Shown here piece by piece: positions 3,358-8,982 of a DNA stretch of 60,525 nt. The notes beneath the pieces were generated by a model. The model saw only the letters and a program-made list of their open reading frames with translations. It had not been told where the DNA came from and did no database searches. The stretch covers positions 1 through 60,525 of the forward strand of contig WGCU01000050.1 in NCBI GenBank assembly GCA_015493635.1, in the 5' to 3' direction. Position numbers and translations under genes: made by a program. The DNA comes from Spirochaetaceae bacterium (lineage in GTDB: Bacteria > Spirochaetota > Spirochaetia > B11-G9). Positions within the stretch are counted from its first letter, which is position 1. Each line of letters opens with the position of its first letter.

Positions 3358-4695
3358 TTAATACCCGAGATCAAGCATTGCGTCAGCCACTTTTTTAAAG
3401 CCGGCAATGTTGGCACCCCGGACATAATTTACGTAACCGTCAGCCTGTTTCCCTTCCCTAACGCACGCTTCATGAATATCTTTCATGATAATTTTCAATT
3501 TCCCGTCAACTTCTTCAGCTGACCATGAATATTTCATTGCGTTCTGAGACATTTCAAGGCCGGAAACAGCAACACCGCCCGCGTTAGCAGCTTTCCCGGG
3601 GCCAAAAGGAATTTTTTTATCTATAAAATAGTTAACGGCTTCGGTAGTACACCCCATGTTGGAAGTTTCAATAACGTACGAAATACCGTTTGCAACAAGT
3701 TGTTTTGCATCATCTATGTTTAATTCATTCTGGAACGCACAGGGGAAAGCCATATCCACTTTTTCTTCCCAGGGTTTACGGCCGGCAAAAAACTTGGCAC
3801 CAAACTTTTTCGCGTAGGGTTCAACGACATCGTTGTTGGATGCTCTCAGCTCCAGCATATAATCCCACTTTTCCTGTGTGTTTATACCATCTTCATCAAG
3901 AACATACCCGTCAGGTCCGGAAATTGTTACAACCTTTCCACCAAGCTGAGTCGCCTTTATGCAGGCACCCCATGCAACATTACCAAAACCGGAAACAGCA
4001 ATCCGTTTTCCCTTGAAGGTATCTCCATGTTCGCGAACTATTTCATCGGCAAAGTACATCGTGCCGTACCCTGTCGCCTCCGGACGGACAAGAGAACCTC
4101 CCCAGTTCCGTCCCTTTCCGGTCAGTACGCCGGTATTCTCTACCCGCAGACGCTTATACTGCCCGTACAGGTATCCGATTTCCCTGCTCCCAACACCAAC
4201 ATCTCCCGCCGGAACATCTGTTTCGGGACCGATATATTTTTGCAGCTCTGTCATGAAGGACCGGCAGAACCGGAGGATTTCGGCATCTGATTTACCTTTC
4301 GGATTAAAATCAGAACCGCCTTTTCCCCCTCCCATGGGAAGTGTTGTCAAACTGTTCTTAAAGATCTGCTCAAAACCGAGAAACTTCAACGTACCAAGGG
4401 TAACGCTTGGGTGAAACCGAAGTCCGCCCTTGTAAGGACCGATACTGTTGTTAAACTGTACCCGATATCCCTTGTTAACCTGAATTTCACCGTTATCATC
4501 TTCCCATTCAACCTTGAACATAAACGTCCGGTCCGGCTCCGTTATCCGTTCAAGAATCTTCGCGTCAACATACTCGGGATCTTCATTGACAATATCAATG
4601 ACAGAATCGAGAACCTCACTTACCGCCTGAATAAACTCAGGTTCACTGGGATTTTTCCGTTCAAGCTCGGTCATAAACTCTTTTTTATCATACAT
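3358..4695 (-). CDS. gdhA: NADP-type glutamate dehydrogenase
   Basis: 445 residues, standard for the hexameric bacterial enzyme that interconverts 2-oxoglutarate plus ammonium and glutamate. Visible features: YKGGLRFHPSV, the catalytic-lysine loop PMGGGKGGSDF, PAGDVGVGSREIGYL, and the nucleotide-binding loop SGFGNVAWG. The C-terminal part contains GPGKAANAGGVAVSGLEMSQN. I start it at the ATG at 4695 (MYDKKEF), which has GGAGG 6 bases upstream; an in-frame ATG seven codons earlier lacks a binding site. Cofactor preference for NADP is inferred from the family. It is transcribed away from the ATP-grasp gene at 4821 from a 125-base gap. Confidence 0.95.
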   Translation of the reverse strand: MYDKKEFMTELERKNPSEPEFIQAVSEVLDSVIDIVNEDPEYVDAKILERITEPDRTFMFKVEWEDDNGEIQVNKGYRVQFNNSIGPYKGGLRFHPSVTLGTLKFLGFEQIFKNSLTTLPMGGGKGGSDFNPKGKSDAEILRFCRSFMTELQKYIGPETDVPAGDVGVGSREIGYLYGQYKRLRVENTGVLTGKGRNWGGSLVRPEATGYGTMYFADEIVREHGDTFKGKRIAVSGFGNVAWGACIKATQLGGKVVTISGPDGYVLDEDGINTQEKWDYMLELRASNNDVVEPYAKKFGAKFFAGRKPWEEKVDMAFPCAFQNELNIDDAKQLVANGISYVIETSNMGCTTEAVNYFIDKKIPFGPGKAANAGGVAVSGLEMSQNAMKYSWSAEEVDGKLKIIMKDIHEACVREGKQADGYVNYVRGANIAGFKKVADAMLDLGY

Positions 4696-4732
4696 ACTAT
4701 GCCTCCATGACATCATACATCTTTACCCGCAT

Positions 4733-4820: not shown

Positions 4821-7775
4821 ATGGAAACACGCTACTATTTCAAGGAAACCCCTTTCGAAAAACTTATGTCAATACGGATACGGGAGATACTCCTTGTATG
4901 CAGCACGTATGATAAGTTTATGCTTGAAGAGGACGGAAGAATTGATGAACAGCTGTTTCAGGAATACGTTTCCTTAAGCCTGCGCTATCCTCCCAAATTC
5001 ACTCAGGTTTCGACTGCCGGCGAAGCAATGGAAACCCTCAACGCAAAATACTACGATCTCATTATTGTCATGCTCAGTATCGGAGACACCAGCGCCCTGG
5101 AACTTGCTTCAAAAATAAAATATCTGTATCCCGCAAAACCAATTATTCTTCTTACCCCCATTTCAACACGGGATACCATACTGCATCTTAAAAGAGGTGA
5201 TTTTAAATCTATTGATTATATTTTTTCATGGCAGGGAAACTCCAACATCATGCTGGCCATGGTGAAACTTATAGAGGATAAAATCAACGTCGATTTTGAT
5301 TCAGAAACAGCAGGAGTTCAATCTATTATTCTTGTTGAAGATTCAGTCAAATACTATTCAAGCTACCTTCCCATGATCTATAAGACCCTCTTCCGTCAAG
5401 CCAGGAATTTAATGAAAGAAGGTCTTAACGAATGGCAGCAGACAACACGTATGCGGGGACGTCCGAAAATTCTTCTAGCCCGGACATTTGAGGAAGCACT
5501 GAACCTTTATCAAAAATACAAAAAAAACATTCTCGGTATCATTTCAGATATTGCATACAGCAAGGGAGAAAAAACCGACCCCGACGCCGGTTTAAAACTC
5601 TGCGCGTACATTCGAAACGAGAACAGGGAACTGCCCATCCTTCTCCAGTCGTCCCAGAAAGAACATAGGGAAAGAGCTTTTAAAGCAGGTGCTGATTTTC
5701 TGTACAAACACTCTAAAACACTGCTTAGAGATCTCGAAAGTTACATCCGCCATAATTATGGTTTTGGTGATTTTGCCTTTAGAAATCCGATAACCCTGGA
5801 ACCAATTGGATATGCCCATGATCTCCGCAGCCTTCAGAAGCAGCTCGCACAGATTCCGGATGAATCCTTCGCCTACCATGTCCGGAACAACGATATTTCA
5901 AAATGGCTGAAGGCAAGAGCACTCTTTTCTCTTGCAACGTACCTCAGACCGAAACAGCTTGATGATTTTGAAAGTATACGCGCGACAAAAGAATTCATTA
6001 TTAAAGCAATAAAAAACTTCCGCTCCCATGAAGGACGGGGAACCATTGCCGAGTTTGATAAAAACAAGTTTGATGAACTTACCTTTTTTTCCCGTATTGG
6101 TTCAGGATCCATGGGGGGGAAAGGCAGAGGTCTCGCTTTTATGGACCTGCTGCTTAAAAAAAACAGGCTGACATACAAGTATGAAAATATTGTTATTTCC
6201 ATCCCCAAGACTGTTGTACTCACCACGGAGGTATTTGATGAGTTTATGGAAGAAAACAATCTCTTTGAGACAGCCCTTGGGGATAATGATGATGATAAAA
6301 TATTGTCTGTTTTTCTCCGCTCAAAACTTCCTTCCCGTATCCAGGATGATTTGCAGGCCATCCTTGAAGAAATCAAGCAGCCCCTGGCAGTGCGGTCATC
6401 CAGTCTTCTGGAAGATTCCAGATATCAGCCATTTGCCGGAATTTACTCGACATTTATGCTCGCAAATAACGGAATCAGTAAAAAAGAAAATCTTGAAGCT
6501 CTCTGCAAGGCTATTAAAAGTGTGTATGCATCTACCTATACCCGCAGAAGCAAGGATTACATGGCTGCCACAAACAACATCACAGAAGATGAAAAAATGG
6601 CAGTTATTATTCAGGAACTAACCGGGCTCAAGTATGGTACGCGGTACTATCCCACTTTATCGGGAGTTGCACGTTCACTGAATTTTTATCCCATCGGAAA
6701 AGAAAAACAGGAAGAGGGTATTGTTAATGTTGCTTTCGGACTCGGCAAAACAGTCGTCGATGGAGGAATCTCGCTGCGGTTTTCTCCATACTACCCAAAA
6801 AAAATCATCCAGCTTTCTGATCCCCGGAATGCGCTTAAAAATACACAGCAGATGTTTTACGCCCTTAATCTGGGAAACACTTCCTTTGATCCTCTTAAAG
6901 GAGAAAAGTCAAGTCTCCTCTATCTTCCCGTTGCATCAGCTGAAGAAGACGGCTCACTGAAACCCGCAGCATCAACGTACGATTTCCAGAATAATAGAAT
7001 AAGAGACGGTATTACCCGTCAGGGAAAGCGGATCATCACCTTCGCCGGAATTCTGAAATACAATCAATTTCCCCTTGCTGATATTTTGAAAGAGATTCTC
7101 AAACGGGGACAGGAAGCCATGAACGTACCGATAGAAATTGAGTTCGCTGTTAATCTCAAATCCGGAGACAGCAGGCCGGGACTTTTCAGCTTTCTGCAGA
7201 TACGCCCCATTGTGGAAGGATTTGAAAGTGAAGATATCTACATAGAAGAGGAATTCCCCCCGGATACCATTATCTATTCCCAAAAGTCGATGGGCAACGG
7301 TTCCTATCCTAATTTGAAGGATATCGTGTATATAAAGGGTGAAAACTTTGACCCTTCCAAAACAAAAATGATGGCGGAGATGATCAGCCGTATTAATGCC
7401 GAATTCAGCATGACACGGACAGGCTACATTCTTATTGTACCCGGACGCCTCGGCTCCACCGACCCCTGGCTTGGAATACCTATTGCATGGCAGGATATCT
7501 CTTTTGCCCGGGTTATGGTAGAAGCCGGTCTAAAAAATTTCAGAGTGGAACCGAGCCAGGGAACCCACTTTTTTCAGAATATAACATCCCTGCAAAACGC
7601 TTATTTAACCATCAACCCCTACCTTGATGACGGCATACTTAACACAAAGCTTCTCGACTCCCTGGATCCGGTATTTGAAAATGAGTATCTCAGGCACGTC
7701 AGATTCCCCGCACCCCTCGTCATCAAGGTAAACGGCAGAACAGGTAAGGCAATTATCTACGCAAATAATTCCTGA
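4821..7775 (+). CDS. Receiver-receiver-PEP/pyruvate-binding (ATP-grasp) signalling protein
   Basis: 984 residues. Residues ~20-165 form a receiver-like domain whose acceptor position is lost (DLIIVMLSIGD). Residues ~168-315 form a second receiver with the acidic pair in LVEDS, a candidate acceptor Asp in GIISDIA and a lysine in FLYKHS. Residues ~420-805 match the PEP/pyruvate-binding ATP-grasp domain of PEP synthase and pyruvate phosphate dikinase: GSGSMGGKGRG, AVRSSSLLEDS, FAGIYSTFM, and QIRPIVEGF at the end. The phosphohistidine swivel domain and PEP-binding barrel of those enzymes are absent. An uncharacterised ~170-residue tail contains PGRLGSTDPWLGIPI and SQGTHFFQN. Similar proteins occur in Bacteroidetes and other bacteria (recollection). 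It probably transfers phosphate from ATP to an unknown acceptor under receiver control (inference). No clear Shine-Dalgarno; the start follows family N-termini. Confidence 0.8.
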   Translation: METRYYFKETPFEKLMSIRIREILLVCSTYDKFMLEEDGRIDEQLFQEYVSLSLRYPPKFTQVSTAGEAMETLNAKYYDLIIVMLSIGDTSALELASKIKYLYPAKPIILLTPISTRDTILHLKRGDFKSIDYIFSWQGNSNIMLAMVKLIEDKINVDFDSETAGVQSIILVEDSVKYYSSYLPMIYKTLFRQARNLMKEGLNEWQQTTRMRGRPKILLARTFEEALNLYQKYKKNILGIISDIAYSKGEKTDPDAGLKLCAYIRNENRELPILLQSSQKEHRERAFKAGADFLYKHSKTLLRDLESYIRHNYGFGDFAFRNPITLEPIGYAHDLRSLQKQLAQIPDESFAYHVRNNDISKWLKARALFSLATYLRPKQLDDFESIRATKEFIIKAIKNFRSHEGRGTIAEFDKNKFDELTFFSRIGSGSMGGKGRGLAFMDLLLKKNRLTYKYENIVISIPKTVVLTTEVFDEFMEENNLFETALGDNDDDKILSVFLRSKLPSRIQDDLQAILEEIKQPLAVRSSSLLEDSRYQPFAGIYSTFMLANNGISKKENLEALCKAIKSVYASTYTRRSKDYMAATNNITEDEKMAVIIQELTGLKYGTRYYPTLSGVARSLNFYPIGKEKQEEGIVNVAFGLGKTVVDGGISLRFSPYYPKKIIQLSDPRNALKNTQQMFYALNLGNTSFDPLKGEKSSLLYLPVASAEEDGSLKPAASTYDFQNNRIRDGITRQGKRIITFAGILKYNQFPLADILKEILKRGQEAMNVPIEIEFAVNLKSGDSRPGLFSFLQIRPIVEGFESEDIYIEEEFPPDTIIYSQKSMGNGSYPNLKDIVYIKGENFDPSKTKMMAEMISRINAEFSMTRTGYILIVPGRLGSTDPWLGIPIAWQDISFARVMVEAGLKNFRVEPSQGTHFFQNITSLQNAYLTINPYLDDGILNTKLLDSLDPVFENEYLRHVRFPAPLVIKVNGRTGKAIIYANNS

Positions 7776-8956
7776 TATTTTTTCAAACCTTCTTCCAGAA
7801 TCTTGATAGCCGGTTTTAAATCCTCAACAGCAAGAACATAGGCAAGTCTGACCTGATTCTTTCCAAGTCCCTCAGTAGCATAGAATCCGGCTGCAGGGGC
7901 AACCATCGTGGTAGCTCCGCCGAAACGGAAATCTGTAAGCATCCAACGGGCAAAATGATCCGCGTCAGCAATGGGAAGCTGAATAATCATGTAGAAAGCT
8001 CCCTCCGGTTTTTTTACTAGTACCCCCGGTATGGCGGATACCGCGTCAAAGGCAAAGTCTCTCCTTTTACGGTACTCGCTGTTTACCTCATCAAAGTAGG
8101 AAGCGGGAGTATCAACTGCCGCTTCAGCAGCCATCTGATCAATCGTTGGAGGGCAGAGCCGTGCCTGGCCAAGTTTAAGAACAACTTCAAGAAGTTTTTT
8201 ATTCCGGGTAATAAGGGTTCCCACCCGAGCTCCACAGGCGGAATACCGCTTTGATACGGAATCAATAAGCACAGCATGTTCTTCTATACCGTCAAATTCA
8301 AGAATTGAATGAGCCTTCCGTTCTCCGTAGGTAAATTCACGGTACGCTTCATCGGAAAAAATATACAGATCATGTTTTTTAGCAAAAGCAATAAGCCCGT
8401 CAAGCCTCTCTCTTGAAAAAACCGCACCGGTGGGATTACCGGGGTTAGAAAAGAGTATTGCTCTCGTTTTATCAGTACGCACCTTTTCAAACTCTTCCAT
8501 TGGAGGAAGTTGAAACCCGTCTTCTATTTTTGTAGTAACAGGAACAACGTTAACACCTGCCATAACCGCAAATCCATTGTAGTTTGTATAAAACGGTTCG
8601 GGAATAATAACCTCATCGCCGGGAGAAAGAGCTGCCATAAGAGAAAAAATAATAGCTTCACTTCCGCCGGTTGTGATAAAAACATTATCCGCTGTGACAG
8701 GGATTCCTCTTGTTCTGTAATATTCAGCCAGTTTTGTTCTGTAGCTGTACAGTCCGGCGCTCGGACCGTACGCGACAACCTCCGGTATGTTCTGATAGGC
8801 TTTTCTCATGCCCGAAGGAGTCTTTATATCCGGCTGACCGATATTGAGATGATACACCTTAACACCCTCTTTTTTTGCTTCGTCCGCGAAAGGAGCAAGC
8901 TTCCGAATCGGACTTTCCTGTAATGAACTGTTGCGTGATGATACCTGTAATGACAT
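7757..8956 (-). CDS. PLP-dependent class I/II aminotransferase (aspartate aminotransferase-like)
   Basis: 399 residues, cytoplasmic, fold-type I. The N-terminal substrate segment reads LNIGQPDIKTP; SNPGNPTG is the conserved turn before the cofactor Asp/Tyr; the Schiff-base lysine is K236 in DSVSKRYSACGARVG; the C-terminal Arg region follows NQVRLAYV. This matches the AspC/AlaT-type group, but substrate specificity cannot be read from sequence. I start at 8956 (MSLQVSSRN), where GGAGGA lies 7 bases upstream, rather than at the in-frame ATG 15 bases earlier. Its 3' end overlaps the 3' end of the ATP-grasp gene by 19 bases. It is the last gene of the parE-parC-rluA run. Confidence 0.9.
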   Translation of the reverse strand: MSLQVSSRNSSLQESPIRKLAPFADEAKKEGVKVYHLNIGQPDIKTPSGMRKAYQNIPEVVAYGPSAGLYSYRTKLAEYYRTRGIPVTADNVFITTGGSEAIIFSLMAALSPGDEVIIPEPFYTNYNGFAVMAGVNVVPVTTKIEDGFQLPPMEEFEKVRTDKTRAILFSNPGNPTGAVFSRERLDGLIAFAKKHDLYIFSDEAYREFTYGERKAHSILEFDGIEEHAVLIDSVSKRYSACGARVGTLITRNKKLLEVVLKLGQARLCPPTIDQMAAEAAVDTPASYFDEVNSEYRKRRDFAFDAVSAIPGVLVKKPEGAFYMIIQLPIADADHFARWMLTDFRFGGATTMVAPAAGFYATEGLGKNQVRLAYVLAVEDLKPAIKILEEGLKKYQELFA

Positions 8957-8982
8957 AACCGATTCCTCCATATCTTCTGGAT

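Follow-up and report, generated by a model that had tools for sequence, protein, structure and literature searches.

The 984-aa protein encoded at positions 4821-7775 of the analysed window (the whole stretch of DNA, 60,525 nucleotides, from a Spirochaetaceae bacterium) is, judging from its sequence, probably a dedicated, signal-gated and ATP-dependent regulator of the glutamate dehydrogenase (GDH) encoded beside it, a reading to which we give a probability of roughly 0.6. The protein begins with two receivers, of which the first lacks the acceptor Asp and the second is canonical; a DUF5752-like linker, an ATP-grasp domain (PPDK_N) and a tail of ~173 residues follow in this order. Its full-length relatives are 34-64% identical to it. 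This architecture is not a product of chance, since it is conserved over 103 relatives. The family is widespread among bacteria, and its link to GDH is strong. A preliminary description had read the protein as a receiver-controlled ATP-grasp protein without a swivel domain and with a conserved tail His, which stands, but it overlooked GDH as a conserved neighbour; it also omitted the DUF5752-like linker and the divergent gdhA upstream. The features of the locus are as follows.

3358-4716, minus strand: gdhA, encoding a 452-aa glutamate dehydrogenase; divergent from the family gene and proposed target of the regulator (NF010633, 796.9 bits, cutoff 743)
4821-7775, plus strand: receiver-receiver-ATP-grasp-tail gene (ORF and translation, 984 aa)
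4878-5309, plus strand: receiver-like domain 1 (residues ~20-163), with Met84 at the acceptor position (Pfam Response_reg at 43-121; alpha/beta fold in the AlphaFold2 model)
5316-5759, plus strand: receiver domain 2 (residues ~166-313), canonical (conserved residues; related by Foldseek to PleD, PorX and single receivers)
5547-5549, plus strand: Asp243, predicted phospho-acceptor (invariant, n=103)
5823-6035, plus strand: DUF5752-like helical linker (residues ~335-405; location taken from the L049, L060 and L054 matches)
6081-7211, plus strand: PPDK_N-type ATP-grasp domain (residues ~421-797; PF01326 at 1.1e-44, Foldseek and motif alignment)
7254-7772, plus strand: tail domain without an assigned fold (residues ~812-984; AlphaFold2 pLDDT 90.7, pTM 0.89)
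7443-7454, plus strand: G875-R876-x-G878 motif of the tail (invariant in 103 relatives and in the 26-row core alignment)
7566-7568, plus strand: tail residue His916, within S-x-G-[ST]-H-F-F, a candidate for a catalytic or acceptor role (invariant)
7757-8971, minus strand: PLP aminotransferase, convergent neighbour (NF005744, 590.8 bits; its cluster c5 occurs in 8 surveyed loci)

Receiver domains and linker

The significant Pfam matches of the 984-aa protein are confined to Response_reg (two stretches, 5.7e-9) and PPDK_N (1.1e-44, residues 430-799). Conservation counts given here refer to an alignment of the 103 full-length relatives, and the deepest alignment contains 26 members across the N-terminal architectures. 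The acceptor position of the first receiver (residue 84), where Asp would be expected, is Met in 90 of the 103 relatives, and this domain lacks the set of residues (an acidic pair, the acceptor Asp, a Ser/Thr and a Lys) that is typical of response regulators. The second receiver has all of these, with Glu173 (103/103), Asp174 (96/103), Asp243 (103/103), Ser277 (103/103) and Lys296 (102/103) conserved among the relatives. Pfam and the alignment of relatives therefore agree with the earlier claim of two receivers fused to an ATP-grasp domain, the first of them without an acceptor Asp. In PorX and PleD, both returned as fold matches by Foldseek, receivers likewise gate an enzymatic output, but the output of the present family is an ATP-grasp domain rather than an alkaline-phosphatase-like or GGDEF domain. 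The neighbour clusters of the surveyed family loci did not reveal a kinase gene that recurs beside the family. For the linker that follows the receivers, PF19027 (DUF5752) is matched by 14 of the 17 members of the group labelled A2, with a best value of 7.1e-7.

ATP-grasp domain and tail

The PF01326 match spans profile positions 3-311 of 328, and Foldseek relates this part of the protein to the ATP domain of rifampin phosphotransferase (5hv6) and to HpeI (9goj). The motifs GGKG (K434), VRSSxxxED (R525, E531 and D532), (D/E)xE (E772 and E774) and LQxRP (Q793) are all kept and align with those of the host's own PPDK and PEP-synthase-like proteins. K434, R525, E531, D532, Q598, E774 and Q793 are invariant in the 103 relatives, so that a loss of ATP-binding residues across the family, an outcome that the preliminary description had considered, is not seen. 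As far as sequence comparison goes, the ATP-grasp domain is a member of the PPDK/PEP synthase/rifampin phosphotransferase superfamily, while the protein as a whole is outside those enzymes: it shares with them the homologous PF01326 domain and the same motifs, but is without their swivel, barrel and rifampin-binding domains and has receivers and an unassigned tail. Two of the host's own genes with related products deserve mention. A PEP-synthase-like gene (L001, contig C47) carries an in-frame TAG immediately behind the FAG motif in the ATP-grasp domain it encodes, reflecting either a pseudogene or a sequencing error, and a second PPDK-like protein (L185, contig C18:150612; 890 aa) reads GIRGKEA where GGKGANL is expected and keeps the swivel His.

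The PEP/pyruvate TIM barrel (PF02896) is absent, the protein stopping about 185 residues past the ATP-grasp domain. The His swivel domain (PF00391) has no match in the 984-aa protein or in 75 tails of the family, no Pfam family is matched by more than one of these 75 tails, and hhalign detects no similarity between the tail and the swivel domain of the host PPDK (probability 0.1%). AlphaFold2 predicts a confident fold for the tail, in which Foldseek shows no swivel and for which it finds no PDB match at E<=0.001; searches for PDB sequence homologues gave chance matches only (best E 0.034), and comparison of the model with a viral fold library gave nothing. A swivel domain hidden in the tail is thus ruled out by Pfam (75 tails), hhalign and Foldseek, and the earlier statement that the swivel and the barrel are both missing is borne out. 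The conserved-looking GTHFFQ pointed out previously in the tail proved to be conserved indeed, with S912, G914, H916, F917 and F918 invariant in 103 sequences, and the columns that do not vary in the 26-member alignment include G875, R876, G878, E901, S912, G914, H916 and F917. In the AlphaFold2 model, His916 sits at the N-terminus of a predicted helix, and the order strand-loop-[ST]H-helix-strand recalls the setting of the swivel His.

The absence of a swivel domain bears on two alternatives to a regulator of GDH. The preliminary description itself had proposed, as one option, phosphorylation of a separate His protein; the protein would then be half of a split dikinase and act on a swivel His carried by another protein, in the manner of HpeI on HpeH. 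There is precedent in the split dikinases HpeHI, CreHI and phenylphosphate synthase, in which a stand-alone ATP-grasp component, likewise unfused to the swivel domain, works with a swivel partner (PMC12167813), and the Foldseek match to HpeI is in line with it. But the neighbour clusters of family genes contain no swivel or HPr-type protein as a conserved neighbour, no swivel partner is found near a family gene in the host genome, and the five swivel domains that the host encodes all lie inside large ORFs (584-905 aa), several of them recognisable as PTS enzyme I, PPDK and PEP-synthase-like proteins. The family also differs from the split dikinases in its receivers, DUF5752-like linker, tail and GDH partner, and since the role of a dikinase half would leave the invariant tail unexplained, we consider it very unlikely. 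The second alternative is a non-catalytic sensor, which binds ATP or AMP and clasps GDH with no phosphotransfer. ATP-grasp closure by itself could drive such a conformational switch, and no acceptor domain was recognised by Pfam, hhalign or Foldseek; yet the invariance in 103 relatives of all ATP-site residues, E774 and Q793 included, and of the tail His goes beyond the needs of binding, making a pure sensor quite unlikely.

Family architectures

The family presents several N-terminal architectures on the ATP-grasp-tail core. The type of the window carries two receivers on this core, members of 1522 aa (L054:7884-12449 and L057) carry repeats and two receivers, and core-only members of about 580 aa exist as well. 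A type of ~860-930 aa has a front part that is RecA/KaiC-like by eye and without a Walker A motif, in which Pfam finds only PPDK_N, while a type of about 1060 aa combines a different front part with a C-terminal nucleotidyltransferase having an intact GS...DxD motif. This nucleotidyltransferase domain is absent from the 4821-7775 product according to Pfam and is a property of the sister type only. The tail is found in every architecture of the family, from which we conclude that the ATP-grasp domain and the tail form the conserved unit. Regulators typically show such a combination of a constant core with exchangeable input domains, and the variety of N-termini suits a regulatory output.

Some loci have further peculiarities. 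In L054 and L057, about four copies of a sensor-like repeat precede both receivers, and one copy occurs in the nucleotidyltransferase-fused type. A stand-alone RecA/KaiC-like protein (by eye) of ~430 aa is encoded at L063:4834-6117, and another in L069, in each case just upstream of a family member with a similar N-terminus. Proteins made of the core and the C-terminal GS...DxD nucleotidyltransferase (L070:4706-7897, L068:6757-9942 and L186-L193) adjoin an archaeal-type GDH.

Linkage to glutamate dehydrogenase

At the window, gdhA and the family gene are 105 bp apart, and the region between them contains 2 promoter-like sites against 0.9 expected, a number near chance. The only other family copy of the host genome (contig C5) is 41% identical and is followed by a second gdhA. 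Further upstream in the window, positions 235-2084 hold two tandem SPFH/stomatin-like genes, followed by a gene for a small NfeD-like membrane protein (2099-2560; all named by eye).

We examined the linkage in two independent even draws of genomes, 393 from the host phylum and 80 from the phylum to which Bacteroides pyogenes belongs. In the host phylum, GDH is present in 101 of 103 family-positive and in 149 of 290 family-negative genomes, a co-occurrence that is not corrected for phylogeny, and the assemblies of the two family-positive genomes without GDH are incomplete (92% and 77%). Of the 111 family genes in this phylum, at least 67 lie within 5 kb of GDH; a gene placed at random in a genome of ~3 Mb would be expected to do so in well under 1% of cases. 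In the second phylum, GDH-I is present in all 12 genomes with the receiver type, though only 25 of the 80 genomes have one, and 13 of 16 full-length genes are within 2.5 kb of GDH, 12 of them within 500 bp. GDH is present in 64 of 120 family loci, and in some genomes the family gene and GDH are far apart. The 149 family-negative genomes that keep GDH indicate that GDH does not generally need the family.

All four relative orientations are seen among 45 close family-GDH pairs, which indicates that the pairing has been re-formed repeatedly. The trees of the two partners correlate, with a Mantel r of 0.45 against a permutation maximum of 0.22, species history being uncorrected in this value. All 7 complete loci of the nucleotidyltransferase-fused type have a GDH of a different class (about 31% identical) next to the family gene; in one of these 7 members, the fused domain itself is lacking. 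A row of five genes at L186:3805-15171 (minus strand) encodes, in this order, nucleotidyltransferase-fused, core-only and receiver-type members and GDHs of class I and class II, an arrangement well suited to studies of the system. Because the association with GDH persists across rearrangements, duplications and different GDH classes, we infer that GDH is its likely target. The genomic linkage as such shows a partnership, and neither its direction nor its chemistry.

Comparison of GDHs with and without a partner gave few differing positions (H102, P325 and H415) and no convincing modification site. The GDHs of small genomes without the family (L174-L179) are changed at these three otherwise invariant positions and are probably one GDH subgroup. 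H102, P325 and H415 were dropped as partner-dependent GDH sites, as the differences are mostly confined to this apparent single subgroup.

Genes for glutamate synthase, 2-oxoacid:ferredoxin oxidoreductase and aminotransferase also recur in the neighbourhood of the family. These metabolic neighbours, together with the catalytic-looking motifs of the tail and the small-molecule substrates of the ATP-grasp relatives (rifampin phosphotransferase, HpeI and PEP synthase), would fit a metabolic enzyme, namely a phosphotransferase or ligase whose substrate is a small molecule from glutamate/2-oxoglutarate metabolism and whose receivers serve only as allosteric gates. However, the substrate-binding domain of known phosphotransferases is absent, and swappable sensory N-termini as well as the specific coupling to two GDH classes suit a regulator better, so that a metabolic enzyme of this kind seems unlikely.

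Proposed mechanism and relation to known systems

For the regulator of GDH that we favour, the following sequence of events can be proposed. A sensor kinase would phosphorylate Asp243 of the second receiver, upon which the receiver pair and the DUF5752-like linker would open or close the ATP-grasp domain. ATP would then be used at a site that the tail, standing in for the missing swivel domain, completes with R876, D881, E901 and H916. The output would alter GDH activity with the nitrogen state, most likely through covalent modification of GDH or else through an ATP-driven conformational action. The candidate chemistries are transfer of phosphate to GDH, autophosphorylation of the tail and a clasp driven by ATP.

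A more specific proposal is that the family constitutes a new covalent-modification system, in which the ATP-grasp domain and tail phosphorylate GDH under two-component control and the sister type nucleotidylates it, thus forming a GDH counterpart of GlnE across Bacteroidota, spirochaete-like and related bacteria; we put this forward tentatively, as possible but doubtful. GlnE uses nucleotidyltransferase activity on glutamine synthetase. The resemblance of the family to GlnE/GlnD is one of functional analogy only, that of a dedicated regulator of a nitrogen-assimilation enzyme, with some family members having a GS...DxD domain; the core, by comparison, is not homologous, its chemistry is that of an ATP-grasp domain and its proposed target is GDH. 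In Bacteroides, Prevotella and many anaerobes, GDH is one of the main routes by which ammonia is assimilated; no mechanism of post-translational control of its activity is known from these organisms, nor did the open-licence literature yield one.

The preliminary description had called the biology undescribed. Within the open-licence literature, which is weak evidence on this point, we found no functional description of the family and no paper on B. thetaiotaomicron BT1970-BT1973, and for the protein itself the claim thus holds. It does not extend to the subject as a whole, since the title of Baggio & Morrison (1996, J. Bacteriol. 178:7212; via PMC4539542) names, for Bacteroides, trans-acting gene(s) that lie downstream of gdhA. 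As judged from that title and from the gene position in B. pyogenes, these gene(s) are likewise located beside gdhA and affect GDH; in B. pyogenes (L112), a family gene of ~3 kb lies directly downstream of one gdhA, in convergent orientation. In the 1996 study, a 3-kb segment was reportedly required in trans for activity in E. coli, and the GDH of B. fragilis was reportedly found in 1987 to be reversibly inactivated in vivo. On the basis of the B. pyogenes gene order and the reported 3-kb segment, the Bacteroides members of the family may be the trans-acting gene(s) of the 1996 title. For the sign of the effect, activation or reactivation of GDH is favoured, on account of the 1996 title, the reported 3-kb segment, the reported inactivation in B. 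fragilis and the B. pyogenes gene order.

The family thereby offers a concrete candidate, with residues named, for the factor of the 1996 title. If the protein is indeed a regulator of GDH, it would represent a new output of two-component systems, in which ATP-grasp chemistry is directed at a metabolic enzyme.
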